A stretch of DNA of 64,000 nucleotides, from positions 62,001 to 126,000 of the forward strand of contig MKVX01000007.1 in the NCBI GenBank assembly GCA_001899255.1, written 5' to 3'. Source of the stretch: Rhizobiales bacterium 62-47 (GTDB taxonomy: Bacteria; Pseudomonadota; Alphaproteobacteria; Rhizobiales; Xanthobacteraceae). A program made the translations under genes and the position numbers. The notes beneath the pieces were generated by a model that saw only the letters and a program-made list of their open reading frames with translations, was not told the DNA's origin and did not search any database. Shown here piece after piece: positions 19,241 through 39,211 of the stretch (position 1 is its first letter; each line of letters begins with the position of its first letter).

Positions 19241-19272
19241 CTCCGATATTACGGAGAAGCTCCGACATTTCG
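19241..19272. promoter_or_regulatory. Tandem activator sites D
   Basis: CTCCGATATTACG (19241-19253) and CTCCGACATTTCG (19260-19272) are 19 bp apart. They have the same orientation towards their promoter as sites A-C. The proximal copy is 100 positions from the -24 T. Confidence 0.8.
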
Positions 19273-19371
19273 TGGCGCGCTTGTAGATGTCGCCTATCAG
19301 CGTATCCGCCGCGATCCCATATCGTGGTGATTTTGCGGGCATTTTCCATTGCTTCGACGTCACACTGGGAT

Positions 19372-19386
19372 TGGCCCGCTTCTTGC
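19372..19386 (+). promoter_or_regulatory. Sigma-54 promoter D (opgC)
   Basis: TGGCCCGCTTCTTGC, identical to promoter A, with GG-N10-GC spacing. The leader to the opgC ATG would be about 140 nt. Apart from this and the activator sites, I see nothing in the 370 bp before opgC. Confidence 0.85.
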
Positions 19387-19537
19387 GAACTCCAGAGCAC
19401 ATTCAAGGCGAAAGAACTTGTCGGTCGCCTTGGAGGGAGATGTGTCGCCGAACCGCACTCCAAAGCCGGCGATCTTCGGACAGATGGAATGCATTTGATC
19501 GGATTCAATCCTCAACAGGGCGGACTGCATCATTACA

Positions 19538-22916: not shown

Positions 22917-22927
22917 ATTCTACTCTC

Positions 22928-24004
22928 TCACCCGTTGATTGTGCGCAACCAGCTCGCGCGCCACTTCTCGACGTTCACTTTATTCCAGTCCATCGTGTAC
23001 GTCTTGGCGAGATCCTCTTCCGACAGCAGCATAAACTTGCTGATAACGGGATCGCTCGCCAGTTGCCGCCTCGCCTCGATGTTCACCGGTGCGACACCCA
23101 TCGGCTTGGCGAAATTGACCTGGGACTCGGTGTCGAGGAACTGGTTGATGAAGGCGGCGGCCGCTTCCGCATTCTTCGTACCTTTCACAATTCCAAGATA
23201 ATTGAACTCGATCTCACCGCGCTTGTCGCCGAGCGTCGGATGAATCATCCCCATCTTCTGCCCCGCATTTGCCAATCGCAAAGCCATGCCGGCGTGCCAG
23301 GGAGCTGCGACGATGTCGCCCAGAGACATTTTCTGGGCGAGCTCGACCGCCGCGGAGTAGTAGTAGAGCGGCCTCATCTTCTTCGCGGCGGCGAAGCCCG
23401 GTTCCGGATTGCTCTCGCTTCCGCCGTTTGCCAGAGCGAGCAATGTCACGGCAGGCCAATGCTGCGGATTGACGACGTCCGGGAACGCCAGCTTGTTCGC
23501 GTATACACTATTCTGAAGATCCATCAGGGTCTTCGGAAGTGGCAGCTTGTCAGCCTCGAACCTGTCCGCACGATACACAATGCCATTCTGGACCATGTGG
23601 TAGGCCACGGCCTTGCCTTCCGTGATCGAGACCGAGGTTTTCTTCAGATTCGGGATATGCGCCTCCGGCAGATCCTCGAGAAAACCATTTCGGGTCATGG
23701 CGATCCGCTCAGCCGGCGAGATTTCCATCACGTCGATCGGAACGGCAGCTCCACGAGCCGCAACGATCTTGGCAAAGTTATCGGCCGGATTTCCCGGCAC
23801 GTACTCGATCTTGACGCCTCGCGCCTCGAGCTTCGATCCCACGAAGCTCTGAATCGCGTCCTTCCAGCCACCGCCGAAGACGCCGACACGGAGGGTAACA
23901 TTATCGAAACGCTTTTGATCTTGCGCCGACGCGCGCCTTGCACCGAGCATCAAGCCACTTGATGCGAGGGCGGTAGTGAAACTACGTCTAGTCAATCCAC
24001 TCAT
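22928..24004 (-). CDS. ABC transporter substrate-binding protein, PotD-like
   Basis: 358 residues from the Met at 24004, chosen because GAGG lies upstream and the product starts MSGLTRRSFTTALASSGLML, a twin-arginine signal. Earlier in-frame Met adds nine residues. The fold is the type II periplasmic binding protein of polyamine/iron importers (VTLRVGVFGGGWKDAIQSFV, YVPGNPADNFAKIVA, NYLGIVKGTKNAEAAAAFIN). Tat export suggests it folds before export. It lies 11 bp upstream of the ATPase gene. Confidence 0.88.
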   Translation of the reverse strand: MSGLTRRSFTTALASSGLMLGARRASAQDQKRFDNVTLRVGVFGGGWKDAIQSFVGSKLEARGVKIEYVPGNPADNFAKIVAARGAAVPIDVMEISPAERIAMTRNGFLEDLPEAHIPNLKKTSVSITEGKAVAYHMVQNGIVYRADRFEADKLPLPKTLMDLQNSVYANKLAFPDVVNPQHWPAVTLLALANGGSESNPEPGFAAAKKMRPLYYYSAAVELAQKMSLGDIVAAPWHAGMALRLANAGQKMGMIHPTLGDKRGEIEFNYLGIVKGTKNAEAAAAFINQFLDTESQVNFAKPMGVAPVNIEARRQLASDPVISKFMLLSEEDLAKTYTMDWNKVNVEKWRASWLRTING

Positions 24005-24040
24005 GGCGTACCTCACGTTGCAGTTGGTCAATCGGCAGTT

Positions 24041-24856
24041 TCATCGTGGAATCATGTCCAGTCCGACTAATCTTTGAATCACCCATAGCGACACCACCGA
24101 CATAGCCGCGATCAGAGTCGATATGGCGAGGACAGACGGATTGAAGTCAAACTGAAGCGTGTTGAAAATCTCGACGGGCAATGTCGTATAAGAAGACGAC
24201 GATAGGAATATCGAGAGCGGCACATCACCGAATGCCACAACAAAGGCATAAAGCATCCCGGCGATAATGCTCGGACGAATGATCGGAAACGTGACCGACC
24301 AGAACGTGCGCCATCGGCTACAACCAAGAATTGCCGCGGCCTCATCAAGACGGGGGTTCAAGCGCTCCAACATCGCGCCCACCGTCCCGACCACATAAGG
24401 CATCCCGACAAAAACATAGGCAACGATCAGGCCGGGAAGCGTCGCGGCGAGCCTCACGCCCATCAGGGCCTGAAGGCTATAATAAAACTGCAAGAATACG
24501 ACGCCGGTCACGACCAGCGGAATCTGCAAGGGCATCCGGAAGAACGATCTCAACCACTCCACGCCGGGCAGCTTTCCTCTCACAATGCCCAGCGCCGCGA
24601 GCACGCCGAGAGCCGCAGAGATGACAGACGCGACCGAGGCGGCAGTGAAACTCACTCCCAGTGCGTGCCAATATTTTGGAGGAATCTCCCGATACCATTT
24701 CAATCCGAGTTCATGAGGCGGGAACCGCGCAGCAAAGTAAGCTCCGGAGTCGAACGATGATGCGCTCACCACGATCAGAGGAGCCACGAGAAAGACGAAC
24801 ACGCAGAGGACAAATGCATATCCTAATCGGCGACGAAGAGCGTCTGCTGTCAGCAT
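24041..24856 (-). CDS. ABC transporter permease, PotC-like
   Basis: 271 residues, six membrane segments. The cytoplasmic EAA loop reads EAAAILGCSRWRTFWSVTFP, the contact with the ATPase. It starts 2 bp after the first permease gene and lies 36 bp from the binding-protein gene, consistent with one operon. Confidence 0.9.
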   Translation of the reverse strand: MLTADALRRRLGYAFVLCVFVFLVAPLIVVSASSFDSGAYFAARFPPHELGLKWYREIPPKYWHALGVSFTAASVASVISAALGVLAALGIVRGKLPGVEWLRSFFRMPLQIPLVVTGVVFLQFYYSLQALMGVRLAATLPGLIVAYVFVGMPYVVGTVGAMLERLNPRLDEAAAILGCSRWRTFWSVTFPIIRPSIIAGMLYAFVVAFGDVPLSIFLSSSSYTTLPVEIFNTLQFDFNPSVLAISTLIAAMSVVSLWVIQRLVGLDMIPR

Positions 24857-24858
24857 AG

Positions 24859-25767
24859 CTAAGCAGCCTTCTTAACAAAAGTGGAGACAGCTGCGGGAGC
24901 CGGTGATGCCATGCGCCGGAATCGCCCCTGACGCGACATCAGATATCCGGCCAACACGTTGAGGCAGAACACCGACACCAGAAGAATGGTCGATAAGCTC
25001 GCCGCAAATGGATAATCCACATCGAGAATCACGCTGCGCTGAATCAGGATCGGAAACGTCAGGACGCGACCACCACCCAACAAGGCGGGCGTCGTGAATG
25101 CACCCATCGCCAGATTAAATACCATCAGCGTCGCAGCGATCATGCCCGGCTTAACGATCGGAATAATCACTCCGTAAAACACCCGCGCGCGCGAAGCGCC
25201 ATGCGCGTGGGCCGCCTCTTCGAGACTAAGAGGGACGGTGCTGATCACCGTGCCGAGCAAAAGCACGATCAACGGTAGAGTGAAATGCACGAGGCCGACG
25301 ACGACACCCGCCTCAGACCCGAGCCATCCCAGGGGCTTCGAGAATACGGACAGAGCCTGGTTCACCACGCCATTTTGGCTCAGCAGGATAATCAGCCCGA
25401 CGTCCTTGACGACCGGCGTAATGAACATGGCGGCCACAAGGAGGCCAACGAGCGTTGCCTTCCTGCGGGAAGTCATCCTGGCAATTACGTAGCTCACCGG
25501 AAAACCAATGGCGAGGCAGATCGAGGCCGACAAAGCCGAGAGGCCGATGGTACGCAACAATGACCCGACGTATAGCGGATCGGTGAATACTCTCACGTAG
25601 TTGGCAAGCGTCCACTCTTCGCCGATACGACCATAGCCCAAGTTCTCGTGGAAGCTCGCGGCGATGAAGTACGCCTGAGGAAATGCAAACAACACGAATG
25701 ACACTGCCAGCGGAATGATGAGCAGCAATCTCCAGGGGCGAGGATCGTCAACGAGTGTCACAGGCAT
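24859..25767 (-). CDS. ABC transporter permease, PotB-like
   Basis: 302 residues with six membrane segments and the EAA loop EEAAHAHGASRARVFYGVII. It is the first gene of the importer operon. A perfect 16-bp palindrome ends about 12 bp before its start, so the regulator would sit on the promoter or ribosome site. The C-terminal 25 residues are charged and variable. Confidence 0.9.
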   Translation of the reverse strand: MPVTLVDDPRPWRLLLIIPLAVSFVLFAFPQAYFIAASFHENLGYGRIGEEWTLANYVRVFTDPLYVGSLLRTIGLSALSASICLAIGFPVSYVIARMTSRRKATLVGLLVAAMFITPVVKDVGLIILLSQNGVVNQALSVFSKPLGWLGSEAGVVVGLVHFTLPLIVLLLGTVISTVPLSLEEAAHAHGASRARVFYGVIIPIVKPGMIAATLMVFNLAMGAFTTPALLGGGRVLTFPILIQRSVILDVDYPFAASLSTILLVSVFCLNVLAGYLMSRQGRFRRMASPAPAAVSTFVKKAA

Positions 25768-26218: not shown

Positions 26219-26992
26219 ATGACGACGCCTAGCAACGTGAAATCTTTGGCTCAGCACAGAAGTCCAAGTCTCGCGCTCACGGAGGCTCAACTCCGCGTTC
26301 AGCTCGCTGCCGCTTATCGGATCTTTGCACACTTCGGCTGGGACTATCTGATCTACGGCCACATCAGCGCGCGGGTGCCCGGCCCTGAGCATCATTTTCT
26401 GATCAATCCGTTTGGCCTGCGTTTCGACGAGGTAACGGCCTCGAACCTTGTCAAAATCGACATCGACGGTAGGAAGGTGGAGCACTCCGACTACGATGTG
26501 AACCCCGCAGGGTTCATCATTCACAGCGCCGTTCATGCCGCACGCGAAGACGCGCTCTGCGTCATGCACACTCATACCATCGCCGGAATGACCATGGCCG
26601 CGACCAAGGCTCCGCTTCGAGCGCTGGATTTTGCGGGGGCGGCACTAACTCACCGCGTAGCCTATCACGATTTTTCGGGCGTTCATGCCGATGATTCCGA
26701 TCGGGACTCGTTGATTTCCGATCTTGGCGACAAAAACTACATGATCCTTCGCAACCACGGGCTGCTCGTTTGCGGTCGCACGATTCCGAGCGCGTTCAAG
26801 CGCCTCTACGATTTTGAGACCGCATGCAAGGTTCAAACTGCCGCCATGGCCATGAATGCTCCGCTCGTCGAACCGTCCCAGGATATCGCTGTTGCTCACG
26901 CTGCAGTGCTTGAGAACGACGATCAAGGTGAGATGGCCTTCAAGGCCCTCATGCGCCTTATGGAGAAGCAGGATCCCGGCTACAAAACCTAG
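26219..26992 (+). CDS. Class II aldolase/adducin-family protein
   Basis: 257 residues from the Met at 26219 (CGGAG upstream; the longer frame adds 37 unlikely residues). The family signature is clear: YGHISARVPG, then HSAVHAAREDALCVMHTHTI with the paired metal-binding histidines of H-T-H, and MILRNHGLLVCGRTI with the third histidine. Relatives cleave sugar phosphates or decarboxylate/aldol-cleave 2-oxo acids. There is no sugar-kinase partner here, so a C-C lyase step on a catabolic intermediate is more likely. It stands alone on the plus strand, convergent with fbiC. Confidence 0.85.
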   Translation: MTTPSNVKSLAQHRSPSLALTEAQLRVQLAAAYRIFAHFGWDYLIYGHISARVPGPEHHFLINPFGLRFDEVTASNLVKIDIDGRKVEHSDYDVNPAGFIIHSAVHAAREDALCVMHTHTIAGMTMAATKAPLRALDFAGAALTHRVAYHDFSGVHADDSDRDSLISDLGDKNYMILRNHGLLVCGRTIPSAFKRLYDFETACKVQTAAMAMNAPLVEPSQDIAVAHAAVLENDDQGEMAFKALMRLMEKQDPGYKT

Positions 26993-27154: not shown

Positions 27155-29587
27155 CTATGACCGGCTGCTATCACAGGCGAGGATCGGGTCCGCAATTTCT
27201 ATCTTCGGCTGGATCGAAATTGCGTTCAGGGAGGCCACCCGCCGTTCCGCAGGCGCCGGCTGATAAACGGTGGTGCGCTGGAGTGGGATTCTGCCTTCCG
27301 ATCGAATGATGTGTTCGATTTGGGCTGGGGACAGTTCCTGGCCATGTACTGACCCGGCCGACCGCGTAATCGTTTCGTCCATAAGCGTACCACCCAGATC
27401 GTTGACGCCCGCCGAGAGGCAGAGACGAATGCCGTCCTGACCGAGCTTTACCCACGAACTCTGAATGTTGGATATCACAGGATGCAGGACGATCCTGGCC
27501 AAAGCGTGCATCAGGATCGCCTCACGGAAGGTTGGACCCTTGCGTGCCCGCCCCTTGAGAAAGATCGGCGTTTCCATTGGGACGAAGGGCAGCGGAACGA
27601 ACTCCGTAAAGCCGCCAGTGCGCTCCTGGAGCCTCCGTATCGACAACAGATGGCGCGCCCAATGCCGCGGCGTATCTACGTGCCCGAACATGATGGTCCC
27701 TGTAGTCTTGAGGCCAACCTCGTGAGCCGTTTCGATCACATTGAGCCATTGCTCGGTTATTAACTTGTCGGGACAGATAACACGCCGCACGTCGTCGTCG
27801 AGCACCTCGGCGGCCGTGCCGGGCAAAGTCCCCAATCCGGCTTCCTTCAGTTGAATCAGAAACTCCCGCACATTCAACCCGAGGGTCGCCGCTCCCTGTG
27901 TCACCTCTAGCGGCGAGAAGGCATGGATATGCAGATCAGGAACCGCGGCTTTGACCGCGAGACAAATGTCTAGGTAACGCTGCCCGGTGTAAGCCGGATG
28001 AATGCCGCCTTGCATACAGACTTCCGTAGCGCCGCGCTGCCAGGCTTCCTTCGCTCGACGGCACACTTCCTCGTCGTCGATGTCGTAAGGCCGTCCACGC
28101 AAATTCTCGCTTAGCTTCCCCTTCGAGAATGCGCAAAACTGGCACCGGTAGGAGCAGATGTTCGTGTAATTGATGTTGCGGGTGACCACATATGAAACCG
28201 TGGCGCCATTAACCTCCTGGCGGATCTCGTCGGCGAACCGGCAGACCACCGCGAAATCGTCCCCCCGCGCGGCGAAGAGACAGGTGATCTCATCTTCGGA
28301 AAGGGCTTTACCAGATCGTGCGCGCTCGACGAGCGTGGAAAGGTGAGCGGAAGCAGTCGATGTCGAACCGCTACGGACAAGCCGTACTTCCCGCGCAGGC
28401 AATGGCAGGCCGGCGCCGGCGACCCAAGCGTTGTCACGCGCCCATCCTTCCGAATCTACGCTCGCGAGGATGGCCGGCCGAACCCTTGCATCCAGCCAAC
28501 GTTCCGCTTCGAGGATATAGCGAGGATAGATCGGCAGACGCGGCACCACATCCAGCCCAAGCTCCCGTCCAGCCTCGTGAAGACTTTCGATCGCGGGCCA
28601 GGGAGCCTCGGGATTCACAAAGTCCTTCGTCACCGGAGAAATGCCGCCCCAGTCGTTGATCCCGGCTTGAAGCAGTTCGCTCAGAGCGTTCGGGCTGAGA
28701 TTCGGTGGTGTTTGAAGACTAATGTCAGCCGGCAGGATGAGCCGGGCAACGGCAATCGTCCAGATTAGATCATTCAGGCTTGGCTCGGGTGCACGCGCCA
28801 TGCGCGTGCCTTCCTTGGCCCGGAAATTCTGGACGATGACTTCCTGAATATGACCGTACTTGAGATGAAGCTCGCGCAGGGCCATAAGGGTTTCAATCCG
28901 TTCAAGCCGCGTCTCTCCGATTCCGATCAACAGGCCGGAGGTCATTGGTATATTGGCTGCGCCTGCGTCAGCCAAATGCCGGAGGCGAACCGACGGATGC
29001 TTGTCAGGAGATCCGAAGTGAGGACCTCCTTTCTCGCAAAGACGCTCGGATGAACTCTCGAGCATTAGACCTTGCGACACCGACACCGGTCTCAGCGCAA
29101 GCATTTCGCTGCGATTTCCGACACCGTAATTGAGATGGGGAAGCAGTCCGGTTTCCTCGAAGACCAGACGCGCCATTTCCGCCAGATAGGAAAGCGTCGA
29201 GTCGTATCCGAGGCGCGCAAGTTCTTCTCGCGCCGTCCGATACCGCGCCTCGGGTCTGTCGCCCAGCGTAAACAGCGCCTCGTGACAGCTTCCTCGCGCA
29301 CCGTCTCGTGCGACGGACAGCACCTCTGCGGCAGTCATGTAGACGTTCGAAGCCGGCTTCGAAGGTCGTTCGGCGAATGTGCAATACGCGCAGACGTCCC
29401 GGCAAAGATGAGTCAGTGGAATAAACACTTTGGGAGAATAGGTAGTCCTCGTCCCCCAAGAACGCTGGCGAACCTCGAAGGCAGCGCCGCGCAATGCCGG
29501 CAGATCGGTGCACTCGGCGATCGCACGGACGGTTTCCGAAGAAATTGCGGAATCCTGGACGATCGATTCGATGAACTTGATTGTCAT
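27155..29587 (-). CDS. fbiC: FbiC: fused CofG/CofH, 7,8-didemethyl-8-hydroxy-5-deazariboflavin (Fo) synthase
   Basis: 810 residues with two radical-SAM domains, as in actinobacterial FbiC. The CofG half has C-x3-C-x2-C at Cys62/66/69 (CRDVCAYCTF); the CofH half has it at Cys478/482/485 (CSYRCQFCAF). Each binds a 4Fe-4S cluster and S-adenosylmethionine. Together they build Fo, the deazaflavin chromophore of F420, from tyrosine and a ribityl-diaminouracil. LPGTAAEVLDDDVRRVICPD and FGHVDTPRHWARHL are CofH-like blocks. It is the last gene of the six-gene operon, 35 bp after cofC. Deazaflavin synthesis is uncommon in Alphaproteobacteria, and its presence on a mobile element shows how it can spread. 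Confidence 0.93.
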   Translation of the reverse strand: MTIKFIESIVQDSAISSETVRAIAECTDLPALRGAAFEVRQRSWGTRTTYSPKVFIPLTHLCRDVCAYCTFAERPSKPASNVYMTAAEVLSVARDGARGSCHEALFTLGDRPEARYRTAREELARLGYDSTLSYLAEMARLVFEETGLLPHLNYGVGNRSEMLALRPVSVSQGLMLESSSERLCEKGGPHFGSPDKHPSVRLRHLADAGAANIPMTSGLLIGIGETRLERIETLMALRELHLKYGHIQEVIVQNFRAKEGTRMARAPEPSLNDLIWTIAVARLILPADISLQTPPNLSPNALSELLQAGINDWGGISPVTKDFVNPEAPWPAIESLHEAGRELGLDVVPRLPIYPRYILEAERWLDARVRPAILASVDSEGWARDNAWVAGAGLPLPAREVRLVRSGSTSTASAHLSTLVERARSGKALSEDEITCLFAARGDDFAVVCRFADEIRQEVNGATVSYVVTRNINYTNICSYRCQFCAFSKGKLSENLRGRPYDIDDEEVCRRAKEAWQRGATEVCMQGGIHPAYTGQRYLDICLAVKAAVPDLHIHAFSPLEVTQGAATLGLNVREFLIQLKEAGLGTLPGTAAEVLDDDVRRVICPDKLITEQWLNVIETAHEVGLKTTGTIMFGHVDTPRHWARHLLSIRRLQERTGGFTEFVPLPFVPMETPIFLKGRARKGPTFREAILMHALARIVLHPVISNIQSSWVKLGQDGIRLCLSAGVNDLGGTLMDETITRSAGSVHGQELSPAQIEHIIRSEGRIPLQRTTVYQPAPAERRVASLNAISIQPKIEIADPILACDSSRS

Positions 29588-29622
29588 TTGGATCTACCCG
29601 CGTCGCAGCCCCGAGGCGCAAT

Positions 29623-30312
29623 CTACAGCCACGGTAGCGGCGGCATCTCGCATGCCAAACACGGATCGAGGCGCTTGCGATCGAGTGTAGAGAGAAAGGC
29701 CTTCGTCCACGTGGATCGTTCACTCGCTAGTACGCGGACGAGATCTGAGGGTCGGTCTACATCCAAATTCAAACCTGGTAAGTGTATCACCTGAGTACGC
29801 AAGCCCGTTTGCCTCACCTGATTGAGGTGGCGAACAAAACTATTCGGTCCATAGCTGAAAGTTATAGCCGTCGGAGGTGAGGCTATGATTGCGTTTGTGC
29901 CTTGGTCGCTGTCGGAGGGCACGATCGTGATTCCGCAGTTCGCGTGCGTCTGCACGAGATCCCTTAACTCGCTCGGGAGAACAAGCGGCACGTCAGCCGG
30001 GATTATCATCGCGGTATCGAAGCCGCGGTCAGACATGGCAGTTGTCGCCTCGAGCACTGCGCGGGTAATGCCCTCCTCCCAGCGATCCGGCATGACCTCG
30101 GCGCCATAGCCGCGCGCGATGGCCGCAACATCATCATCAGCAGTGACCACGAGGGGATGCGTGTCGGATCGTAAGGCCTTGATGGCCCTCATAACGTCAT
30201 GAAACATGGTTGTCGTGAGCACCGATCTCTCATCGGCATTCAGCACAGCGGAGAGCCTCTGCTTTGCAAGCGAGCAGCGCTTCACGGGCACAATTGTTAC
30301 CAGAAGCTGCAT
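29623..30312 (-). CDS. cofC: CofC/FbiD-type guanylyltransferase
   Basis: 229 residues. The nucleotidyltransferase opening LLVTIVPVKRCSLAKQRLSA, then HPLVVTADDDVAAIARGYGA, the metal-binding block TAMIIPADVPLVLP and IVPSDSDQGTNAIIA match CofC. That enzyme guanylylates 2-phospholactate (or PEP or 3-phosphoglycerate in bacterial variants) so that CofD can join it to Fo. Its partner CofD and the glutamate ligase CofE are not in the window. It starts 7 bp after npdG and is followed by fbiC. The family is clear; the acceptor cannot be read from sequence. Confidence 0.85.
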   Translation of the reverse strand: MQLLVTIVPVKRCSLAKQRLSAVLNADERSVLTTTMFHDVMRAIKALRSDTHPLVVTADDDVAAIARGYGAEVMPDRWEEGITRAVLEATTAMSDRGFDTAMIIPADVPLVLPSELRDLVQTHANCGITIVPSDSDQGTNAIIASPPTAITFSYGPNSFVRHLNQVRQTGLRTQVIHLPGLNLDVDRPSDLVRVLASERSTWTKAFLSTLDRKRLDPCLACEMPPLPWL

Positions 30313-30319
30313 CCTCGTC

Positions 30320-30991
30320 TCACTTTTCAGTTCGAGCGATCCCTGTGATGCGAATTCCGGCCTCGGTCTTATAACGACGATTGATGCCGATCAGGACCGA
30401 CGTCAATGCCTCCGCAACGACTGAGTTGGCCAAAACGCCGGCATCGAGGCCCGCCATTCCCATGCGTTCGATGAGACTAATGACCCGCTCCTTAACATCC
30501 TTGTCGTCGCCGCATACCAGTACGTCGCAATCGATCAGATTTGTCGTCTTCAATTTGGCTGCGGCCACGTTTTGGAACGCGGACACAACTTTAACATCGG
30601 ATCCCAGAAGCAACTGCATTTCTTCCGCACCTGATCCGGCGGGCCGCAGGTGAACCACGGAAACCTTCGGTGGCTGCAAGGGCACCGTGGCATCGACCAC
30701 GACCTTGCCCTTCAGATAGGAATGCACCTCTTTCAGCACCTTATCGCGATCGATGAAAGGGACGGCAACAATGACAAGATCAGCTTGTTGGGCGACGTCG
30801 ACGTTCGACGCGCCGACCAGATTTGGCCCGTCAGATCCGCTCGCCAATTCGGAAGCAGCCTGCCTAGCACGTTCGATGTCGCGCGATCCGATGAGTACCC
30901 TGTATTTTGCGCGTGCCAACCGGAATCCGAGACCGCTGCCCAAGGCACCTGTCCCCCCCAGAATCCCGATAACGGTCGTGTCCTCAGCCAT
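30320..30991 (-). CDS. npdG: F420:NADP oxidoreductase (NpdG-like)
   Basis: 223 residues from the Met at 30991, chosen for GGGAG upstream. The N-terminus VIGILGGTGALGSGLGFRLA is the NADP-binding Rossmann loop, and VLIGSRDIERARQAASEL supplies the Ser-Arg that contacts the 2'-phosphate. Blocks such as AVPFIDRDKVLKEVHSYLKG, VVDATVPLQPP and the following QNVAAAKLKTT match F420-dependent NADP reductases. It should reduce deazaflavin with NADPH, feeding the LLM oxidoreductase two genes upstream. Spacing to the dihydropyrimidinase gene is short. Confidence 0.85.
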   Translation of the reverse strand: MAEDTTVIGILGGTGALGSGLGFRLARAKYRVLIGSRDIERARQAASELASGSDGPNLVGASNVDVAQQADLVIVAVPFIDRDKVLKEVHSYLKGKVVVDATVPLQPPKVSVVHLRPAGSGAEEMQLLLGSDVKVVSAFQNVAAAKLKTTNLIDCDVLVCGDDKDVKERVISLIERMGMAGLDAGVLANSVVAEALTSVLIGINRRYKTEAGIRITGIARTEK

Positions 30992-31017
30992 TGGATCTCC
31001 CAACATCGATCGCTAGT

Positions 31018-32415
31018 TCAACTCTTGCCGTGGCTTCGATAGATGTACCTGCCGGTACCGACCGCATCGTCGTTCAGGAGTCGATCGCGCAAGGCGAAAT
31101 TGCCTCTTACCAGCGTGTGCTCGACCCGGCCCTTGAAGCGCCAACCATCATAGATTGAAAAGCCGGCATCCGACCTCATGGTCTTCTCATCCGCAATCCA
31201 CTCGGCATTCAGATCGACGATGGCGAAATCGGCATCTTTGCCAACGGCGATCGTTCCTTTGGTCGGGCAGCCCATAATCCGGGCCGGATTCGCACTGAGA
31301 AGTTCGGCTATTCGGCCGAGGGACAGTTGCCGCTTGTGGTATCCCTCGGTCAGCATGACCGGCAACAGCGTTTCCAATCCCGGGAAGCCAGGCGACGCTT
31401 TCCAAACACCGCCCGTCTTAGCGGCGATATCGCGATGAACATGATCGGTTGCGACGGTGTCGATCGTTCCGGCCTTGATCCCCGCCCACAATGCCTCGAT
31501 ATCGGCTTTCGCTCGAACCGGCGGATTTACCTTTGCCTTAATCCCACCGGACCAATCCACATCATGGGTCAGATACTGAGTGCAGGTTTCGACCGTGAGC
31601 GGCGCGCCCAGCTTGCGCTGTGCGATACTCGCTTCCAATCCCTCCCCGGAGGAACAGTGCACCATATGGACCCTCGCGCCGAGGCTTCGGGCCAGCGTCG
31701 AGACCCGGTGCACGGCCTCCGCCTCCAGGAACGGCGGCCGCGAATTGCTCCAGGCTGCGAGCCCACCCTCTCCATCTGGATCGGCGGCCATCAGTCTTTT
31801 CCGAAGTACCCAGGCAACTTCGATGTTCTCGCAATGCGGGCAGACGATCGCACCGGATGACTTCGCAGCCTCCGCGAGTCGATAGAGGAACCCGTCATCA
31901 ATATCCGGCAAACCCAGGCGCGCGCCTTCGCCGCCACGATTGTACATGAACAGCTTGAACGAGGCGACGCCGAACGTCTTGACATAGACGGGAATTGCGG
32001 CGAGTTGCTTCTCAGTCGAAATCACCAGGTGAAAGCCGAAATCGATCCGCGCGCCACGCTCGGAGACCGATTTGATGTCCTCGAAGATTCCCTCCTCGTA
32101 AGGATCGCTCGCGATCACGTAGGAGATGAACGTTGTAACACCTCCCGCCGCGGCGGACGCAGTCTCGGTATCGGCATCGCTCGCGGCTCTAGGTCGCGTG
32201 ATGTCAGCGCCATGACCGAGATGGATATGAGCATCGATGACGCCCGGAAGAACGGTGAGACCGTTGATGTCCACCACCTGCCCGGCATCTCCAAGCGAGT
32301 TGCGGGAAGCCAGGGCACCGATTTTTCCCCCCACAATTCCGATGTCGAGATCCGCGACCGATCCATCGCCAAGGACGACATGGCCACCGCGCAAAACGGT
32401 CTCGAGTCTGGTCAT
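31018..32415 (-). CDS. Dihydropyrimidinase/hydantoinase-family cyclic amidohydrolase
   Basis: 465 residues, normal length. Metal ligands: the H-x-H of DAHIHLGHG, the carboxylated lysine in SFKLFMYN, His in VCPHCENIE, His in VHMVHCSSGEG and Asp in DTVATDHVH. This set defines the dinuclear-zinc dihydropyrimidinase/allantoinase/hydantoinase group. Enzymes of this class hydrolyse the N-C bond of a saturated ring imide to an N-carbamoyl amino acid. Its neighbours, a reductase of the F420 class before it and a carbamoyl-type amidohydrolase two genes upstream, fit reduction, ring opening and decarbamoylation. GGGAG precedes the ATG. Substrate is inferred from context. Confidence 0.9.
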   Translation of the reverse strand: MTRLETVLRGGHVVLGDGSVADLDIGIVGGKIGALASRNSLGDAGQVVDINGLTVLPGVIDAHIHLGHGADITRPRAASDADTETASAAAGGVTTFISYVIASDPYEEGIFEDIKSVSERGARIDFGFHLVISTEKQLAAIPVYVKTFGVASFKLFMYNRGGEGARLGLPDIDDGFLYRLAEAAKSSGAIVCPHCENIEVAWVLRKRLMAADPDGEGGLAAWSNSRPPFLEAEAVHRVSTLARSLGARVHMVHCSSGEGLEASIAQRKLGAPLTVETCTQYLTHDVDWSGGIKAKVNPPVRAKADIEALWAGIKAGTIDTVATDHVHRDIAAKTGGVWKASPGFPGLETLLPVMLTEGYHKRQLSLGRIAELLSANPARIMGCPTKGTIAVGKDADFAIVDLNAEWIADEKTMRSDAGFSIYDGWRFKGRVEHTLVRGNFALRDRLLNDDAVGTGRYIYRSHGKS

Positions 32416-32483
32416 GACTGGTTCTCCCGATCAGCATCCGCCGCGCAATATGCTTTCGTCGCCGAACGCCTGCCCTGCCGTCG

Positions 32484-33443
32484 TCAGAAAAGGGCTGGGG
32501 CAAGCTCTCGCAATACATCGTCGCGGGATTCGATCCCTGGCGCGACAGGAATAGCGAGCACCACTTCGTCGACCCCAAGCGGCCGTAATGCCTCGACCTG
32601 CCCTTTAATCATCTCGGGCGTACCGGAAAAAGCGTAGCGCGTGACCAGTTCGTCGGGCACCAGCTTGCCGAACTCAGCCTCTGAACGACCATGCTGCTCG
32701 TAGTTGTAGGCAGCCTTGACCTTCACCGCCACCTTGCGGGTCAGGTCATCGATCGGGCCAGGAATATTGCGCAGGATTGCGCGGGCGACGTTGTATTTAA
32801 CCGCATCGAAGGATGGATGGCACGCGGCCCAAACGACAATTTTCGTACTGCCGACCGCGCGTCCTGCTCCTCGCTCGGCCTCATGAACGAGATCTACAGC
32901 AGTCTTGATCAATTCCGGCGCTATACCATTCATCAAGATCACGCCATCGGCCAGTTCACCGGACATCCTCAACATCTTCGGCCCGGTCGCGGCAATATAA
33001 ATTGGGACATCGACGTGGGCGAAGGTGAGCTTCGCGCGATCCCCGGTCGAGAACGAGACAGCCTCGCCTTTGAAAAGCCCCCGGATCTTGGCTACCGCAT
33101 CCGACAGATCCGCGATCTTCGCGATTTCCAGATTCATCACCCTTAGAGCACTGTCGCCAACACTGATTCCAAGCGTCGCGCGCCCCCCGGTTAGCTCGTG
33201 CAGCGTTGAAAAAGCGGACGCCGTAACGGTCGGGTGCCTCGTAATAGGGTTGGTTACAGCCGTACCGAATCGGAGTTTGCTCGTGGAGACTGCGAGCGCG
33301 CCGAGCATCGTATAGACCTCGCGAAAGAGCAGATGCGAATCCAGCATCCAAAGCGTATCGAATCCCAAACCCTCGGCGAGTTTGGCGCTTTCGATGATCT
33401 TCGCCGGATTTTCGTTCGGATAGACTCCTAAACTGACTTTCAT
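32484..33443 (-). CDS. LLM-class oxidoreductase, MER-like, probably F420-dependent
   Basis: 319 residues, a luciferase-like TIM barrel of the methylene-H4MPT-reductase/Fgd group. The start SLGVYPNENPAKIIESAKLA, the block GTAVTNPITRHPTVTASAFS and LGISVGDSALRVM match MER-like F420 enzymes; FMN-dependent members usually differ at TNPxTRH. YIAATGPKMLRMSGELADGV is the second cofactor loop. Next to npdG, cofC and fbiC, deazaflavin use is very likely. In a reductive pyrimidine-type route it would do the first step, reducing a C=C of the ring, in place of the flavin/iron-sulfur dihydropyrimidine dehydrogenase. It is not close to RutA, which is an oxygenase. Confidence 0.85.
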   Translation of the reverse strand: MKVSLGVYPNENPAKIIESAKLAEGLGFDTLWMLDSHLLFREVYTMLGALAVSTSKLRFGTAVTNPITRHPTVTASAFSTLHELTGGRATLGISVGDSALRVMNLEIAKIADLSDAVAKIRGLFKGEAVSFSTGDRAKLTFAHVDVPIYIAATGPKMLRMSGELADGVILMNGIAPELIKTAVDLVHEAERGAGRAVGSTKIVVWAACHPSFDAVKYNVARAILRNIPGPIDDLTRKVAVKVKAAYNYEQHGRSEAEFGKLVPDELVTRYAFSGTPEMIKGQVEALRPLGVDEVVLAIPVAPGIESRDDVLRELAPALF

Positions 33444-33528
33444 TGCACCCGCCTCTTACTCAATCGCCTCGCGGCCTCAGCTCGGAATCCGGCCACATCG
33501 GAACGCCTCCGGGAAAGATCCACCCAAA

Positions 33529-34395
33529 TCACCCTTGAGCAATGGGCCCATAGAGTTCGGGGCGCCGGTCGCGCCACCACGGAAACTTCTTCCGACTCGC
33601 GGAAACCGCGTCGAGATCCAGATCCTGAATCAATAGCTCTTCGGTTTCATTGCTGGCCTCCGCCATTTTCATGCCGGTCGGATCGACAATCATGCTGCGA
33701 CCAAGGTGACGGCGGACCCCCTCGACACCAACTTTGTTAGCGGCAACCACATAAACACCGTTCTCGAACGCCCTGGATCGGATAGCCAGCTCCCAGATCG
33801 AATTGCGGTGTTCCGGGTTAGCGTAGACCGAGTACGCGATCGGCATGAAAATAATCTCAGCACCGGACAGGGCCAACACCCGCGATCCCTCGGGATAAAG
33901 ACGATCATTACATATCTGCACGCCGATCCGAACTCCGTCGACGTCGAATACCGGCAGCGATCCGCCGGGTGTGAAGTAGAATTTTTCATAGCTGCCGGTG
34001 CCACCGGCCTTTTCGTTGGGGAAGTACGCAGGGATGTGCGTTTTACGATAGGTCCCGAGAATTTTACCCGACGAATTCACGATCAAGGCCGAATTGTAGT
34101 TGCCAGTGTTTGCGCGCTCACCAAACGGAAGCACCAGAGCAATTGCGTGTTTTTTGGCAGCTGCCAGGATCGGCGCCAGAACCGGCCCATCTGGCTCCGT
34201 GAAAAAATGATCGTTGTCCTCAACCAACCGGTTCGGGAAAAATGGGGACATGAACAATTCGCAGAACGTGATGATCTTGGCGCCCTTCTCAGCGGCTTGC
34301 TCGATCATCTTCACTGCCGTAGGCACGCTCGATAACATGTTCTCGGATTCCACCGAACCCGTTTGAGCACACGCGACCTTGATCGTCCTTGGCAT
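33529..34395 (-). CDS. Nitrilase-superfamily amidohydrolase (N-carbamoyl-type)
   Basis: 288 residues. The Glu-Lys-Cys triad is visible: Glu in ITFCELFMSPFF, Lys in GTYRKTHIP and Cys in GVQICNDRLYPEG. RSRAFENGVYVVAANKVGVE is the usual C-terminal strand. The closest functional groups are N-carbamoylputrescine and beta-ureidopropionase-like hydrolases that release CO2 and NH3 from N-carbamoyl amines. It is the first gene of the six-gene operon, with GGGAG at good spacing. It would act on the product of the dihydropyrimidinase encoded two genes downstream. Confidence 0.88.
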   Translation of the reverse strand: MPRTIKVACAQTGSVESENMLSSVPTAVKMIEQAAEKGAKIITFCELFMSPFFPNRLVEDNDHFFTEPDGPVLAPILAAAKKHAIALVLPFGERANTGNYNSALIVNSSGKILGTYRKTHIPAYFPNEKAGGTGSYEKFYFTPGGSLPVFDVDGVRIGVQICNDRLYPEGSRVLALSGAEIIFMPIAYSVYANPEHRNSIWELAIRSRAFENGVYVVAANKVGVEGVRRHLGRSMIVDPTGMKMAEASNETEELLIQDLDLDAVSASRKKFPWWRDRRPELYGPIAQG

Positions 34396-34552: not shown

Positions 34553-34588
34553 CCGATGCTGCCGAACATGCACCTCCGGAGCACAAGA

Positions 34589-35875
34589 ATGAATTTGCCT
34601 GCCCATTCGACCAGCCGACCCTCCCCGAGCCGTTCAGGATATTCAAAGATCGTGGTCGTCGGTGGCGGCATCACCGGAGTGACCTGCGCGCTAGCCCTGC
34701 AGAGGCGCGGGCTCGCTGTCACCATCGTAGACGAGGGCCTCGCCGAGCGTCGGTGCTCGTTCGGCAATGCCGGGAGCCTGAGTCCGGGCTCAGTCGCGCC
34801 GCTAGCCATGCCCGGTGTGCTCAGTCAGGTGCCCGGCATGTTGATTGATCCATACGCGCCGCTTCATATCCGGGCACGCTACATCCTGCAGGTAGCGCCG
34901 TGGCTTTGGCAATTCATCCGGTCCGCGTCACCCAAGCGCGTAGAAGAGATATCTCACGGCCTAAGTGCCCTGCTGAGTAGCTCAATTGAGCTATACACAA
35001 AATTGCTCACGGAGATCCGTGCAAACGATCTTATTCGCCGCCGGGGGCAACTTCAGTTGTACACGAGTAAGAAGGGATTCCAGAAGGACGCCGCGGTCTG
35101 GGCCTTGCGTCGGGCAAGGGGCGTTACGGTCGAAGACGTCAGCCTCGACGACATTCGTCAGCTCGAACCCGCAATCAGTCCCCGATACAATTGCGGCGTC
35201 TATCTTCCCAATGAAGGCATGATTACCGATCCGGCCCGCCTCGTCGAGCGTCTTGCCGAAGCCTTCGTCAGAAATGGCGGGCAGATTGTCAATGCCAAGG
35301 TTGCGGCCTTTGACATCGACGAGACTTCCCCTCGGGCGGTTTCGACCAATCACGCACCTGTTGCTGGCGACGCGTTTGTCATTGCCGCCGGCGCGTGGTC
35401 GAATCAGCTATCCAGCAGCATCGGGGACAAGGTGCCATTGCAGACACAGCGGGGATACCACGTAACCCTGAACAATCCTGGAATTGAACTGAACCGTCCA
35501 GTCGTGGCCGCCGACCGGAAGTATTTCGTCACGCCGATGGACATGGGTATACGCGTGGCGGGAACGGTCGAATTCGACAGGTTGGATAGCCCCCCAAACT
35601 ATGATCGCGCTCGCGCCTTGGTCGATTGCATTCCTGAATTGCTGCCCAGCATCACGATCGACAAAAAGAGTCTGTGGATGGGCAACCGCCCTTGCATGCC
35701 AGATTCGCTTCCCGTCATCGACCGCTCCACTTCGTTTCCAAACGTCTATTACGCGTTTGGAAACGGTCATCTTGGATTAACAGGTGCACCGATGACGGCC
35801 GAGATCATTGCGGCTCTTGTCATGGGCGAGACGCCGGCAATCGACGTCTCGCCTTTCCATGTCTCCCGCTTCTAG
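34589..35875 (+). CDS. FAD-dependent amino-acid dehydrogenase, DadA-like
   Basis: 428 residues from the Met at 34589 (GGAG 8 nt upstream; an earlier Met adds 11). The FAD-binding GxGxxG loop is IVVVGGGITGVTCALALQRR. RRCSFGNAGSLSPGSVAPLA is the conserved second block of D-amino-acid dehydrogenase/glycine-oxidase-like enzymes, and FGNGHLGLTGAPMTAEIIAA the C-terminal FAD contact. It should oxidise an amine or D-amino acid to the imine and pass electrons to the respiratory chain. The RidA-family gene nearby would remove the enamine/imine product. Divergent from the deazaflavin operon. Confidence 0.87.
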   Translation: MNLPAHSTSRPSPSRSGYSKIVVVGGGITGVTCALALQRRGLAVTIVDEGLAERRCSFGNAGSLSPGSVAPLAMPGVLSQVPGMLIDPYAPLHIRARYILQVAPWLWQFIRSASPKRVEEISHGLSALLSSSIELYTKLLTEIRANDLIRRRGQLQLYTSKKGFQKDAAVWALRRARGVTVEDVSLDDIRQLEPAISPRYNCGVYLPNEGMITDPARLVERLAEAFVRNGGQIVNAKVAAFDIDETSPRAVSTNHAPVAGDAFVIAAGAWSNQLSSSIGDKVPLQTQRGYHVTLNNPGIELNRPVVAADRKYFVTPMDMGIRVAGTVEFDRLDSPPNYDRARALVDCIPELLPSITIDKKSLWMGNRPCMPDSLPVIDRSTSFPNVYYAFGNGHLGLTGAPMTAEIIAALVMGETPAIDVSPFHVSRF

Positions 35876-37192: not shown

Positions 37193-37531
37193 ATGCGAAG
37201 AGTTCCCGGTGCAATTCCTACCCGCAGCAAGATGGTGATCAGCAACGGCCATATCTTTTGCAATATAGCGCCCGCGAACAAAGGCCCCTCAACCCTCTCT
37301 CAGGCCATGGACGCCCTCAGCATTCTCGACGAACGGCTGAAGGAAGCTGGCTCAAGCAAATCGAAGATCATCAGCGTCTCGATCTTCGTCGCCAACATTG
37401 GCGAAAAAGAAGAGATCAATGCAGCATGGGATGCATGGGTCGACAAAGCCAATCCTCCGATACGGGCCTGCATCGGCGCGCAACTGGAGGGCAAGGATCG
37501 CGTCGAACTCTGTGTAATTGCCGCAGAGTGA
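37193..37531 (+). CDS. RidA-family protein
   Basis: 112 residues, slightly shorter than RidA (about 128). GHIFCNIAPANKGPSTLSQA, LDERLKEAGSSKSKIISVSI and WVDKANPPIRACIGAQLEGK follow the family pattern. The active-site Arg is in PIRACIGA, and the usual C-terminal Glu is in VELCVIAAE. RidA proteins hydrolyse reactive enamines/imines made by PLP enzymes or amine oxidases. That fits the DadA-like and transaminase genes in the same element. AGGAAAGG precedes the start. Confidence 0.85.
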   Translation: MRRVPGAIPTRSKMVISNGHIFCNIAPANKGPSTLSQAMDALSILDERLKEAGSSKSKIISVSIFVANIGEKEEINAAWDAWVDKANPPIRACIGAQLEGKDRVELCVIAAE

Positions 37532-37591: not shown

Positions 37592-39211
37592 CTACCAAGG
37601 TGGCGACGGCATTCTGTCAGGATCCATCTTGACGTCGATCAGAACAGGCCGGCTGCGTCTTTTCAAGACCTCCGCTAACCGCCCCATATCCTTCAGCGAA
37701 CGCACCGTGACGCCCATACCTCCTAACGCCTGAGCGACCGGCGCAAAATCAGGCCAGTCAAAATTCGCGAGGGAGGGATCCATCTGCCGGTCCCGAAACT
37801 GGATATGCTCAGATCCATAGCTACAATCGTTGAGCATCACAATGATCAGATCGAGCTTGTTGCGGACAGCTGTGTTGAACTCGGTGAGACCTCCCATCAT
37901 GAAGCCACCGTCACCCGTCACTAGAACGGTCGGCCGATTCGGTTCGGCAACAGCGGCTCCGATGGCCTGGGACATGCCTAGACCAATTGCTCCGGAGTTG
38001 TGACCAAGCACAAACAGCCTGGGGTCCGTAACGTGAATATGCGTCCACGCTTCACCGAGAGCTCGGCCGCCATCCGTCACGAACACGCGATCATCAGGCA
38101 CTATTGAATTAATGCATCGGAGCACTGTACGGGCATCAGTCGGGCCATCGACCGGAATCTCGAAAGGCTTTGGCCGATGTGCCGCCATCGCAGTGCGAGC
38201 CACCCCTTCTTCGCTGAAGCGCGATGACGGGATTTCGGCCTCATCGAGCCAATGCATGATACGTTCTGCTACGGATCCACTATCCCCGATAACGGCGGCA
38301 TTCACCAGTTGGCCATTATCCAGATCAGCCGGATCATCGTTGACAAGAACGATTCGCTTTCCCCGCACCAACGACTTTTTGGAGGTAGTGTTGCTGGTGA
38401 GGCTTGCACCGAAGGCGATGAGACAATCACTCACAAGAAGCGCCTCGATAGCTTCCGTGCTACTGACTGTTCCCATCACGCCGATGCTGCAATCCTCGCC
38501 ATAATATAGATCCTTTGCCATCAGCGTTGTCATAACCGGCGCACCGAGTCGGCGAGCCAAGGCCAATATGGCATCGCGGGCTTGCGGCATCGTGGCCCCG
38601 CGGCCGGCCAATATGATTGGCCGCTTGGCACCGGCAATAATGCCGACGGCATCTTCGAGGTCTTGGCTATCGCTGACAACACCGTGACGACTACGCAACT
38701 TCAGAAGGGTCCGCGCGTAAGCTGTCTCACGCCATTGCCACTCGGTCGGCAGGTTGAACACCACAGGTCGACGCTCGGTGTGCGCGCGGCGGAACGCAGC
38801 GTGCATATCTGCGATCACGCTCTCCGGATTCCGCGCATGCTCAAATCCCGCCCCTGTCGCCAAGACGAGTTCGCGCTGTTCGAGCCGCTGAAGGTGGGTT
38901 TTGCTGCTGGATATATCGCCTGCCATGAGGACGACCGGAAGTCTCGCTCGCACACCCTCCAGGAGTGCAGGCACGGCATTGGCGAGTGCCGGCCCTTGCG
39001 TGACCGATGCGACGCCAATCTGCCGTGACACGGACGCGTAGCCGAGAGCCATAAGAGTCGCGCCAGCCTCGTGTGCGGCTGCTACGTATTTGCCTCCTCC
39101 TTTGCGGACGAAGTGATCGAGGTAGAACATATTGGCATCCCCCATGACACCAAAGACCGTCGATATGCCGTTGTCGCTCAGAAACTGCGCAACGCACTCA
39201 TTCACCCTCAT
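37592..39211 (-). CDS. ThDP-dependent enzyme, acetolactate-synthase-like
   Basis: 539 residues in three domains. The N-terminal catalytic Glu is in AAAHEAGATLMALGYA; the middle domain binds nucleotide in AHS-like proteins (GAKRPIILAGRGATMPQARD); the C-terminal ThDP motif is VTGDGGFMMGG...MLNDCSYG. Members of this group are acetolactate synthases, benzoylformate or oxalyl-CoA decarboxylases, and sulfoacetaldehyde acetyltransferases. No small regulatory subunit is nearby, so a catabolic 2-oxo-acid decarboxylase or carboligase is more likely than branched-chain synthesis. GGAAG precedes the ATG. Substrate unknown. Confidence 0.87.
   Translation of the reverse strand: MRVNECVAQFLSDNGISTVFGVMGDANMFYLDHFVRKGGGKYVAAAHEAGATLMALGYASVSRQIGVASVTQGPALANAVPALLEGVRARLPVVLMAGDISSSKTHLQRLEQRELVLATGAGFEHARNPESVIADMHAAFRRAHTERRPVVFNLPTEWQWRETAYARTLLKLRSRHGVVSDSQDLEDAVGIIAGAKRPIILAGRGATMPQARDAILALARRLGAPVMTTLMAKDLYYGEDCSIGVMGTVSSTEAIEALLVSDCLIAFGASLTSNTTSKKSLVRGKRIVLVNDDPADLDNGQLVNAAVIGDSGSVAERIMHWLDEAEIPSSRFSEEGVARTAMAAHRPKPFEIPVDGPTDARTVLRCINSIVPDDRVFVTDGGRALGEAWTHIHVTDPRLFVLGHNSGAIGLGMSQAIGAAVAEPNRPTVLVTGDGGFMMGGLTEFNTAVRNKLDLIIVMLNDCSYGSEHIQFRDRQMDPSLANFDWPDFAPVAQALGGMGVTVRSLKDMGRLAEVLKRRSRPVLIDVKMDPDRMPSPPW

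Follow-up and report, generated by a model that had tools for sequence, protein, structure and literature searches.

Genes of the operon

The window analyzed here is a 64,000-nucleotide stretch of the genome of Rhizobiales bacterium 62-47 (contig MKVX01000007.1, contig positions 62001-126000). It carries a six-gene operon in which two predicted hydrolases and an oxidoreductase of the luciferase-like monooxygenase (LLM) type are joined to genes for the synthesis and recharging of the deazaflavin cofactor F420. The operon had been described in an earlier note on this DNA, and all six open reading frames were confirmed at 27155-34395 on the minus strand, with intergenic gaps of 35, 7, 11, 68 and 85 bp. 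Unless stated otherwise, positions are those of the window.

33529-34395, minus strand: CN hydrolase, a predicted N-carbamoyl amidohydrolase (decarbamoylase); CN_hydrolase (Pfam), 199.3 bits
32484-33443, minus strand: Mer-like LLM oxidoreductase, a predicted F420H2-dependent reductase; Pfam family, 174.5 bits
31018-32415, minus strand: cyclic amidohydrolase of the hydantoinase/allantoinase/dihydropyrimidinase type, the predicted ring opener ("ring hydrolase"); Pfam family, 72.9 bits
30320-31006, minus strand: NpdG, NADPH-dependent F420 reductase; TIGR01915, 183.5 bits (cut-off 149.8)
29623-30312, minus strand: CofC, guanylyltransferase of F420 synthesis; TIGR03552, 157.6 bits (cut-off 105)
27155-29587, minus strand: FbiC, FO synthase (fused CofG-CofH); PRK09234, 1120.8 bits (cut-off 1018)

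NpdG, CofC and FbiC all exceeded their curated NCBIfam cut-offs. For the LLM, the ring hydrolase and the CN hydrolase, no equivalog model scored over its cut-off among those compared (the best 25 of 31, the best 25 of 57 and all 11, respectively). The family names thus hold, yet no catabolic enzyme of the operon passes a listed equivalog, because all scores lie below the cut-offs.

The LLM enzyme

The best NCBIfam match of the LLM was the Mer model PRK02271 (186 bits; cut-off 276), and both Mer models scored below cut-off. TIGR03842, the CPS_4043 family, gave 175.2 bits against a cut-off of 295.45; nothing on TIGR03842 or CPS_4043 was found in the openly licensed literature. When the PDB was searched with a three-row profile of the LLM, Mer was returned first (183 bits), followed by F420-dependent glucose-6-phosphate dehydrogenase (FGD; 80.6 bits) and others down to F420-dependent alcohol dehydrogenase (Adf; 70.0 bits). 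A model was calculated with AlphaFold2 from four alignment rows; its mean predicted local distance difference test score (pLDDT) was 83.6 and its predicted template-modeling score 0.86, with pLDDT values below 50 at residues 36-39, 64-67 and 102-109. The 26 PDB chains most similar to this model were all F420 enzymes, and the first flavin monooxygenase held rank 27.

In jMer, Glu6 is described as the catalytic acid, Asp96 and residue 178 as contacts to substrate and cofactor, and Gly61-Val62 as the cis peptide (PMC11094777). Residue 178 is named there as Gln, but is Asn by count in the aligned Mer chain. Glycine stood in place of Mer Glu6 in six of six sequences aligned; the window LLM was also aligned to jMer. 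The LLM and its relatives keep Asp97 and Asn172, the equivalents of jMer Asp96 and residue 178, and have Ala62-Val63 in a VTNP loop at the site of the non-prolyl cis peptide (ITNP in the haloarchaeal row). In sequence, in fold and in the VTNP loop at the cis-peptide site, the LLM thus matches the F420 branch. Because Mer's acid is lost though much of the F420 site is kept, the LLM is not taken to be Mer, an identity that was set aside on the change of Glu6 to Gly and on the two Mer models. Alignment and model place the LLM with the F420-type enzymes, and turnover of F420 is predicted.

The two hydrolases

The ring hydrolase scored 272.5 bits with the allantoinase model of NCBIfam, 261.2 with that of D-hydantoinase (TIGR02033; cut-off 393.25) and 236 with that of hydantoin-5-propionate amidohydrolase, in each case below cut-off. 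His63, His65, Lys154, His194, His253 and Asp324, which we take to be the metal ligands, were invariant in five of five rows. The enzyme is 31% identical to Escherichia coli HyuA, and its best plasmid match came from Methylobacterium (57%).

For the CN hydrolase, the NCBIfam model of N-carbamoylputrescine amidase gave 192 bits (cut-off 410). Compared by sequence with solved structures, the enzyme was closest to N-carbamoyl-D-amino-acid amidohydrolase (140.8 bits), followed by N-carbamoylputrescine amidase (132.7 bits) and beta-ureidopropionase (about 66 bits); its identity to the D-carbamoylases is 29-34%. By fold (Foldseek, best 50 listed) the order was the putrescine type, D-carbamoylase and then, from rank 47, the pyrimidine-degrading enzyme of Drosophila, the mean pLDDT of the model used being only 70. 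The designation of this enzyme as a beta-ureidopropionase in the earlier note is therefore not favored, since that enzyme scores below the D-carbamoylase and N-carbamoylputrescine enzymes by both measures. Glu46, Lys118 and Cys162, presumably the catalytic Glu-Lys-Cys triad, were invariant in four of four rows. The ICNDR motif is kept, and the Arg that follows it, which we assume to bind the carboxylate in N-carbamoyl-D-amino-acid amidohydrolase, is Leu in four of four rows. Because all three kinds of kin remove N-carbamoyl groups, a ureide substrate is favored over an imide.

Supply and identity of the cofactor

Both cofD (281.7 bits) and cofE (264.4 bits) were detected over cut-off in the genome, at contig positions 10263-11944, about 50 kb before the window start. 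They lie in a second F420 cluster (fbiC-cofC-cofD-cofE-npdG-pxpA), which has its own FbiC, CofC and NpdG; two of these copies are located as follows.

Contig positions 9510-10226: second CofC copy, in the genome's other F420 cluster
Contig positions 11971-12651: second NpdG copy, in the same cluster

The host's F420 synthesis set (cofD, cofE, cofC, fbiC) is thus complete by gene search. Because the full pathway including cofD and cofE is encoded, the cofactor is most likely F420 and not Fo, which was set aside. The earlier note had proposed a deazaflavin-dependent LLM, charged by NpdG and coupled to a ring hydrolase and an N-carbamoyl hydrolase; this scheme is supported as an F420-type arrangement, and its Fo option is not supported in the presence of cofD and cofE.

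By gene content, the FbiC, CofC and NpdG of the operon are extra copies beyond a complete genomic set. The two FbiC proteins of the genome are 59% identical. In a tree of CofG, CofH and FbiC (38 rows, the joined CofG+CofH rows being concatenations made for the analysis), the genome's other FbiC paired with that of Sinorhizobium meliloti (100/100). The window FbiC took no resolved place among the other fused FbiC proteins and was not the sister of the second genomic copy; on this tree it is not a recent duplicate of that copy. Its best plasmid match was from Sinorhizobium (60%). The third-position GC content, 0.63-0.68 in the operon versus 0.78 in the genome's other FbiC, agrees with a separate origin, although alone it proves nothing.

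Flanking genes and recurrence of the module

As judged from gene neighborhoods, the functional unit is larger than the six operon genes. The following genes of the window were considered with it:

34556-35875 (alternative start 34592), plus strand, divergent from the operon: FAD-dependent enzyme of the D-amino-acid dehydrogenase/glycine oxidase type; DAO, 219.3 bits
36017-36928, minus strand: IclR-type regulator (IclR_C and HTH_IclR); 49 and 48% identical to proteins of two Variovorax loci
37193-37531, plus strand: RidA-family protein; Ribonuc_L-PSP, 50.2 bits; 32-34% identical to Variovorax RidA
26219-26992, plus strand: class II aldolase/adducin family protein; PRK07044, 325.9 bits (cut-off 207); 62.3% identical to a Variovorax protein
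21738-25767, minus strand: Pot-type ABC importer, with ATPase (21738-22916), binding protein (22928-24031) and two permeases (24041-24856 and 24859-25767); 61, 60, 71 and 71% identical to an importer of Variovorax PBL-E5

The FAD enzyme scored 214.5 bits with the NCBIfam model of the D-amino-acid dehydrogenase/glycine oxidase type (cut-off 383), and the importer ATPase fell into the potA subfamily (362.2 bits; cut-off 355.6).

The gene set recurred in two Variovorax loci, PBL-E5 and dw_308. In tblastn searches of 72,556 plasmid records, one 7.5-kb stretch of the PBL-E5 plasmid was the first match for the CN hydrolase, the LLM, the FAD enzyme (50.6%) and the aldolase. Because four plasmid searches converged on the same stretch, the set is not regarded as a chance neighborhood. 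Identities to PBL-E5 and dw_308, respectively, were 72 and 69% for the CN hydrolase, 62 and 61% for the aldolase, 51 and 49% for the FAD enzyme, and 40 and 38% for the ring hydrolase. Both modules also hold NpdG, a diverged RidA, cofG, cofH, cofD, cofC and cofE. The PBL-E5 module includes a CobW-like GTPase, and a nitroreductase resembling the C-terminal domain of FbiB (123 bits; cut-off 249.55) adjoins its FAD enzyme.

Relatives of the LLM above 50% identity were rare. Among the plasmids, one Variovorax record matched at 53.6%, and the next full-length match was at about 34%. In genome samples that overlap, in which only first-look candidates were scored under stated E-value limits, the family (198 genomes) gave the LLM itself and two relatives at 33-34%, the class (385) itself and one at 52%, and the order (397) and phylum (398) itself only. 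A scan with two short patterns over one genome from each of 84,980 species yielded 100 matched stretches, four of which were confirmed as LLM loci (63, 51, 54 and 28% identity). The closest relative belongs to a Hyphomicrobiaceae metagenome-assembled genome (MAG), where the LLM (63%) and the ring hydrolase (64%) stand in the window order close to the end of a contig; two CN hydrolases (53 and 55%) follow some 4-6 kb onward. The same MAG also carries an F420 cluster with homologues of PxpA (69% identical to PxpA of the window genome), PxpB and PxpC.

In the tree, the split cofG and cofH genes of Variovorax fell with the split pairs from Leisingera and Paracoccus and outside the fused FbiC (100/100). 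Because the cofG/cofH of Variovorax differ in ancestry from the window FbiC, the module appears to have gained its F420 genes on separate occasions; on this phylogeny, F420 supply seems to have been coupled to the module twice. A shared catabolic core with unshared cofactor genes is what functional coupling predicts. Furthermore, cofD was found over cut-off in all three of the other LLM-holding genomes searched (LLM identity 51-63%), versus 43 of 289 in the class sample (Fisher p = 0.0033, or 0.022 for the two alphaproteobacterial holders only); the groups are small, and one holder lies outside the sampled class.

Genes for later steps had been drawn into the pathway by the earlier note:

40109-41434, minus strand: omega-aminotransferase of the AptA type, of doubtful membership in the module; NF052567, 729.1 bits (cut-off 500)

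A homologue of this transaminase (55%) was found near the module in Variovorax dw_308. Within 95,000-185,000 of the PBL-E5 plasmid, a span that includes the module and reaches about 32 and 38 kb past its ends, no transaminase was annotated or detected by tblastn, and no mmsA was annotated, although no sequence search was made for the latter. The "dead mmsA" of the note corresponds to a 32-residue match in a 107-residue open reading frame (E = 3.2e-4), for which an mmsA remnant is a plausible, weakly supported assignment. For a thiamine-diphosphate enzyme at 37592-39211, comparison with seven loci gave no homologue at E = 1e-3. From these comparisons, the transaminase, the mmsA remnant and the thiamine-diphosphate enzyme are not in the shared core. 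The transaminase and mmsA were accordingly not retained as parts of the pathway, neither having been found around the PBL-E5 module, though the transaminase has its homologue near that of dw_308.

Proposed pathway and its alternatives

At slightly better than even odds, we read the operon and its flanking genes as a catabolic pathway in which an unsaturated cyclic ureide would be imported, reduced by F420H2 and then opened. The compound would be taken up through the Pot-type ABC importer (step 1). The Mer-like LLM would reduce a C=C or C=N bond linked to the ring, with F420H2 as hydride donor (step 2), the hydantoinase-type metalloenzyme would open the saturated ring to an N-carbamoyl compound (step 3), and the nitrilase-fold enzyme would strip off the carbamoyl group as CO2 and ammonia (step 4). 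The remaining amino compound, probably a D-alpha-amino acid, would be oxidized by the FAD dehydrogenase, after which RidA may hydrolyze the imine and the class II aldolase may handle the keto acid (step 5). NpdG would recharge F420 from NADPH, and the extra FbiC and CofC would raise the F420 supply (step 6); the IclR protein is the candidate regulator of the module. At the level of sequence, the families, the kept active sites of steps 3 and 4, the F420-type fold of the LLM, the full F420 gene set and the recurrence in Variovorax are established; from them we infer the substrate, the direction of hydride transfer, the order of the steps, and steps 1, 5 and 6. The FAD amino-acid dehydrogenase and RidA are shared among the loci and thus point to an alpha-amino acid, and hence to a hydantoin-type ring, over beta-alanine; a hydantoin-type ring is accordingly more likely than a pyrimidine. 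The broader proposition, that some Proteobacteria reduce hydantoin-type ureides by an F420-dependent route of its own kind via a Mer-like LLM, to which unrelated lineages each added their own F420 genes, is put forward tentatively, with the balance tilting slightly against it.

Several observations weigh against this reading. The LLM model is weak (pLDDT below 50) at residues 64-67, beside the proposed cis peptide. The fold comparison puts the CN hydrolase closest to the putrescine enzyme, and on that model it could act on a carbamoyl amine. The orthology of the ring hydrolase is not clean: its identity to Methylobacterium plasmid enzymes is 54-57%, versus about 40% to the enzyme of the Variovorax F420 locus, and in two of the three viewed the Methylobacterium enzymes adjoin MmgE/PrpD and isochorismatase-family genes. 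The operon's substrate may therefore have a ring other than hydantoin. The Variovorax loci are closely related to each other (84% identity between their ring hydrolases) and were treated as a single lineage. For the importer, a place beside the module was observed in PBL-E5 only; the dw_308 contig stops short of that position. In a Baikal MAG (77% complete), the 38-kb contig that carries an LLM of 51-52% identity has none of the other module genes, and five of seven other bacterial plasmid F420 clusters viewed were without a ring opener, while two had one. The reactions of NpdG and of Mer-type enzymes are reversible, and it is possible that the LLM oxidizes where we have it reduce.

Among the alternatives, a cyclic imide or lactam ring is unlikely, though the least so. 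The LLM would then reduce a maleimide-like C=C bond, the metalloenzyme would be an imidase and the CN hydrolase a half-amidase. Such a scheme would suit the ring-hydrolase kin on plasmids of Methylobacterium and Variovorax SRS16, whose neighbors are two MmgE/PrpD genes, a gene of the isochorismatase family and an FAD-binding protein; the Hyphomicrobiaceae MAG, in which the LLM and ring hydrolase lie less than 8 kb from a PrpD-like gene (42 bits) and the two CN hydrolases; and Agrobacterium rubi, where F420 genes and an LLM stand beside 5-oxoprolinase genes and gabT. However, the kin of the CN hydrolase are decarbamoylases, and an imide would leave the shared FAD amino-acid dehydrogenase and RidA without a released amine to work on. 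That same dehydrogenase, together with the class II aldolase, has no place in an F420-dependent reductive pyrimidine pathway, the proposal of the earlier note, in which the LLM would replace dihydropyrimidine dehydrogenase ahead of dihydrouracil or dihydrothymine opening, beta-ureidopropionase and the AptA transaminase. We judge it improbable, just behind the imide. The similarity of the ring hydrolase to D-hydantoinase/dihydropyrimidinase (261 bits) and the AptA-type transaminase, present in the window and with its homologue in dw_308, speak for it. The first step is also vacant, as that note had observed of the canonical first enzyme: over the whole genome, the best match to NF006183/PRK08318, which we take to be PreA, reached 98.1 bits (cut-off 335), and no RutA was found over cut-off. 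Nevertheless, the CN hydrolase is nearer to the N-carbamoyl-D-amino-acid and N-carbamoylputrescine enzymes than to beta-ureidopropionase, and no transaminase was found near the PBL-E5 module. Of that proposal, F420-type reduction with ureide opening is well supported as an arrangement of genes; the pyrimidine as substrate is not.

F420-dependent LLM enzymes have been divided into reductases and dehydrogenases (PMC6279831). A dehydrogenase role, in which the LLM would oxidize a reduced or hydroxylated ring with F420 and NpdG would hand the electrons to NADP+, is about as improbable as the pyrimidine pathway, if not marginally more so. FGD and Adf, which the model also matched, are LLM-type F420 dehydrogenases, and NpdG-type enzymes are generally known to work in both directions. 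Yet the nearest kin is Mer (183 bits versus 80.6 for FGD and 70.0 for Adf), presumably one of the reductases of that division, and reduction ahead of a hydrolytic ring cut is the usual pathway logic. That the LLM uses flavin mononucleotide (FMN), the F420 genes being present for other reasons, is very improbable: LLM families do include FMN enzymes, and the other genomic F420 cluster, with its own LLM, offers F420 other likely users, but F420 genes apparently joined the same module separately in two lineages, the 26 best PDB chains are F420 enzymes and cofD is present in all three other LLM holders searched.

Comparison with known systems

The proposed ureide route resembles the Pyd pathway (PydA/PreTA, dihydropyrimidinase, beta-ureidopropionase) in reducing its substrate, opening a ureide ring and removing the carbamoyl group as CO2 and ammonia. 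Unlike that pathway, the window operon has a Mer-like LLM and F420 genes, with no PreA over cut-off in the genome; its CN hydrolase is not nearest to beta-ureidopropionase, and the shared set includes an FAD amino-acid dehydrogenase and an aldolase. The route via D-hydantoinase and N-carbamoyl-D-amino-acid amidohydrolase is similar in that both enzyme types are in the operon and a D-amino-acid-dehydrogenase-like gene adjoins it; the window hydrolases are, however, distant from those enzymes (31% to E. coli HyuA, 29-34% to the D-carbamoylases) and are joined to an F420-type LLM. With Mer, the LLM shares the fold, the closest sequence kinship, Asp96, Asn at 178 and the VTNP loop at the cis-peptide site; it differs in having Gly instead of the catalytic Glu6 (PMC11094777) and in falling below the cut-offs of both Mer models.

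The reductive uric acid pathway comprises XdhD, YgfK/UacX, SsnA, HyuA, YgeW/UacY, YgeY and YgeX, and in uric-acid clusters of Chloroflexota a putative F420-dependent luciferase-family enzyme stands in place of YgfK or UacX (2025; PMC12507026). Reduction before hydrolysis, a HyuA-type hydantoinase (31% identical to the window enzyme) and ureido removal are common to that pathway and the one proposed here, and the Chloroflexota prediction likewise has an F420-dependent LLM as reductase. The window module differs in its single ring hydrolase, its occurrence in Proteobacteria and the F420 synthesis genes within the operon. When 11 E. coli proteins of the uric-acid region were compared with the window by tblastn, only HyuA matched at E = 1e-6, with no match for SsnA, YgfK, YgeW, YgeX, YgeY or XdhD; UacX was not searched. 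Uric acid as the substrate of the operon was set aside, SsnA, YgfK, YgeX and YgeY not having been found in the window. A plasmid search with SsnA gave 25 records, none of them from Chloroflexota.

Because of those Chloroflexota clusters, an F420-dependent LLM as the reducing step before ring opening is already in print as a purine prediction (PMC12507026). New here are the proteobacterial module, the decarbamoylase-type enzyme, the single ring hydrolase and the built-in F420 genes. Among the best matches listed from the openly licensed literature (subscription papers were not covered), no F420-dependent pyrimidine or hydantoin pathway was found.

Why Proteobacteria make F420 is listed as an unanswered question in a 2021 review of the cofactor (PMC8498797). 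The module offers a testable answer, as a catabolic operon in which F420 synthesis genes and a recharging enzyme stand beside a predicted F420 user: the rare gene set seems to serve the uptake of a small nitrogen-containing ring compound, its reduction via F420, the opening of the ring and the use of its nitrogen. If this is true, there would be one concrete physiological reason for F420 in Proteobacteria, F420 would take its place next to flavin and ferredoxin among the systems by which heterocycles are reduced ahead of ring opening, and an enzyme for stereoselective ureide reduction would be at hand.

Other F420 clusters and neighboring loci

A general rule that F420 clusters adjoin ring-opening amidohydrolases was considered and dropped. 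All cofD regions over cut-off in the class sample except that of the window genome were compared (42 regions of 3-20 kb, 12 of them under 15 kb) with 16 control regions of about 20 kb, taken from 16 of the same genomes. Ring openers of the DHP, DHO, PxpA/B/C and HyuA/B types, scored by blastp at E = 1e-12 to chosen seeds, were present in 4 of 42 cofD regions versus 2 of 16 controls (Fisher p = 0.66); the cluster of the window genome was left out of this count, as were the regions of two LLM-holder genomes, which had been chosen for their LLM and do contain ring openers. Neither amidases (2/42 versus 2/16) nor aminotransferases (1/42 versus 3/16) were in excess in the cofD regions. LLMs were in excess (27 of 42 regions; none of 16 controls). 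F420 genes are linked to ring openers in certain modules only.

Among the plasmid F420 clusters viewed, those of Paracoccus, Leisingera, Croceicoccus, Aromatoleum and Paraburkholderia had no annotated ring hydrolase adjoining, and those of S. meliloti and A. rubi had a ring opener. The S. meliloti pSymA cluster (680-20334 of the viewed stretch) includes a dihydroorotase, an ArgE/DapE enzyme, an LLM, a transhydrogenase and a xanthine-dehydrogenase-type gene; genes of such a pSymA-type cluster have been associated with nodule competitiveness (PMC8407117). On the A. rubi plasmid (2975-15608 of the viewed stretch), F420 genes and an LLM alternate with gabT, 5-oxoprolinase genes and a class III aminotransferase gene, which suggests that an unsaturated lactam is reduced with F420 and then hydrolyzed.

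The region of the second F420 cluster in the window genome (contig positions 1-25000, about 37-62 kb before the window) also encodes a diaminopropionate ammonia-lyase (520.8 bits; cut-off 276), xanthine-dehydrogenase-type subunits and, by eye, CoA-transferase-like genes. Its ArgE/DapE enzyme (86-92%) and LLM (79%) resemble those of the S. meliloti pSymA cluster. By its gene content, this cluster may serve an F420-dependent reductive purine-type pathway, and uric acid reduction is a fair idea there.

Among four annotated plasmid loci with haloarchaeal relatives of the LLM (32-34%), three have HyuA, HyuB and an LLM side by side with their gene ends overlapping, so that here too a ring-opening enzyme pair adjoins a Mer-like LLM, and one does not; in one of the three, the best query match was a second LLM further on. 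Relatives of the ring hydrolase (42-57%) occur in a recurring module with an isochorismatase-family gene, a branched-chain-type ABC importer, two MmgE/PrpD genes and an FAD-binding protein. The neighborhoods of its relatives in Shinella and Aminobacter gave no clear substrate.

Another catabolic group occupies 43497-54947 of the window. It includes an LLM nearer to the FMN types (47657-48787), a flavin reductase (54234-54947), an AMP-ligase, two enoyl-CoA hydratases, a creatininase-family protein and branched-chain-type ABC transporter genes, and from these families it looks like a two-component flavin monooxygenase pathway. Beyond the catabolic region, a tRNA-Met gene is located at 56950-57026 on the minus strand.

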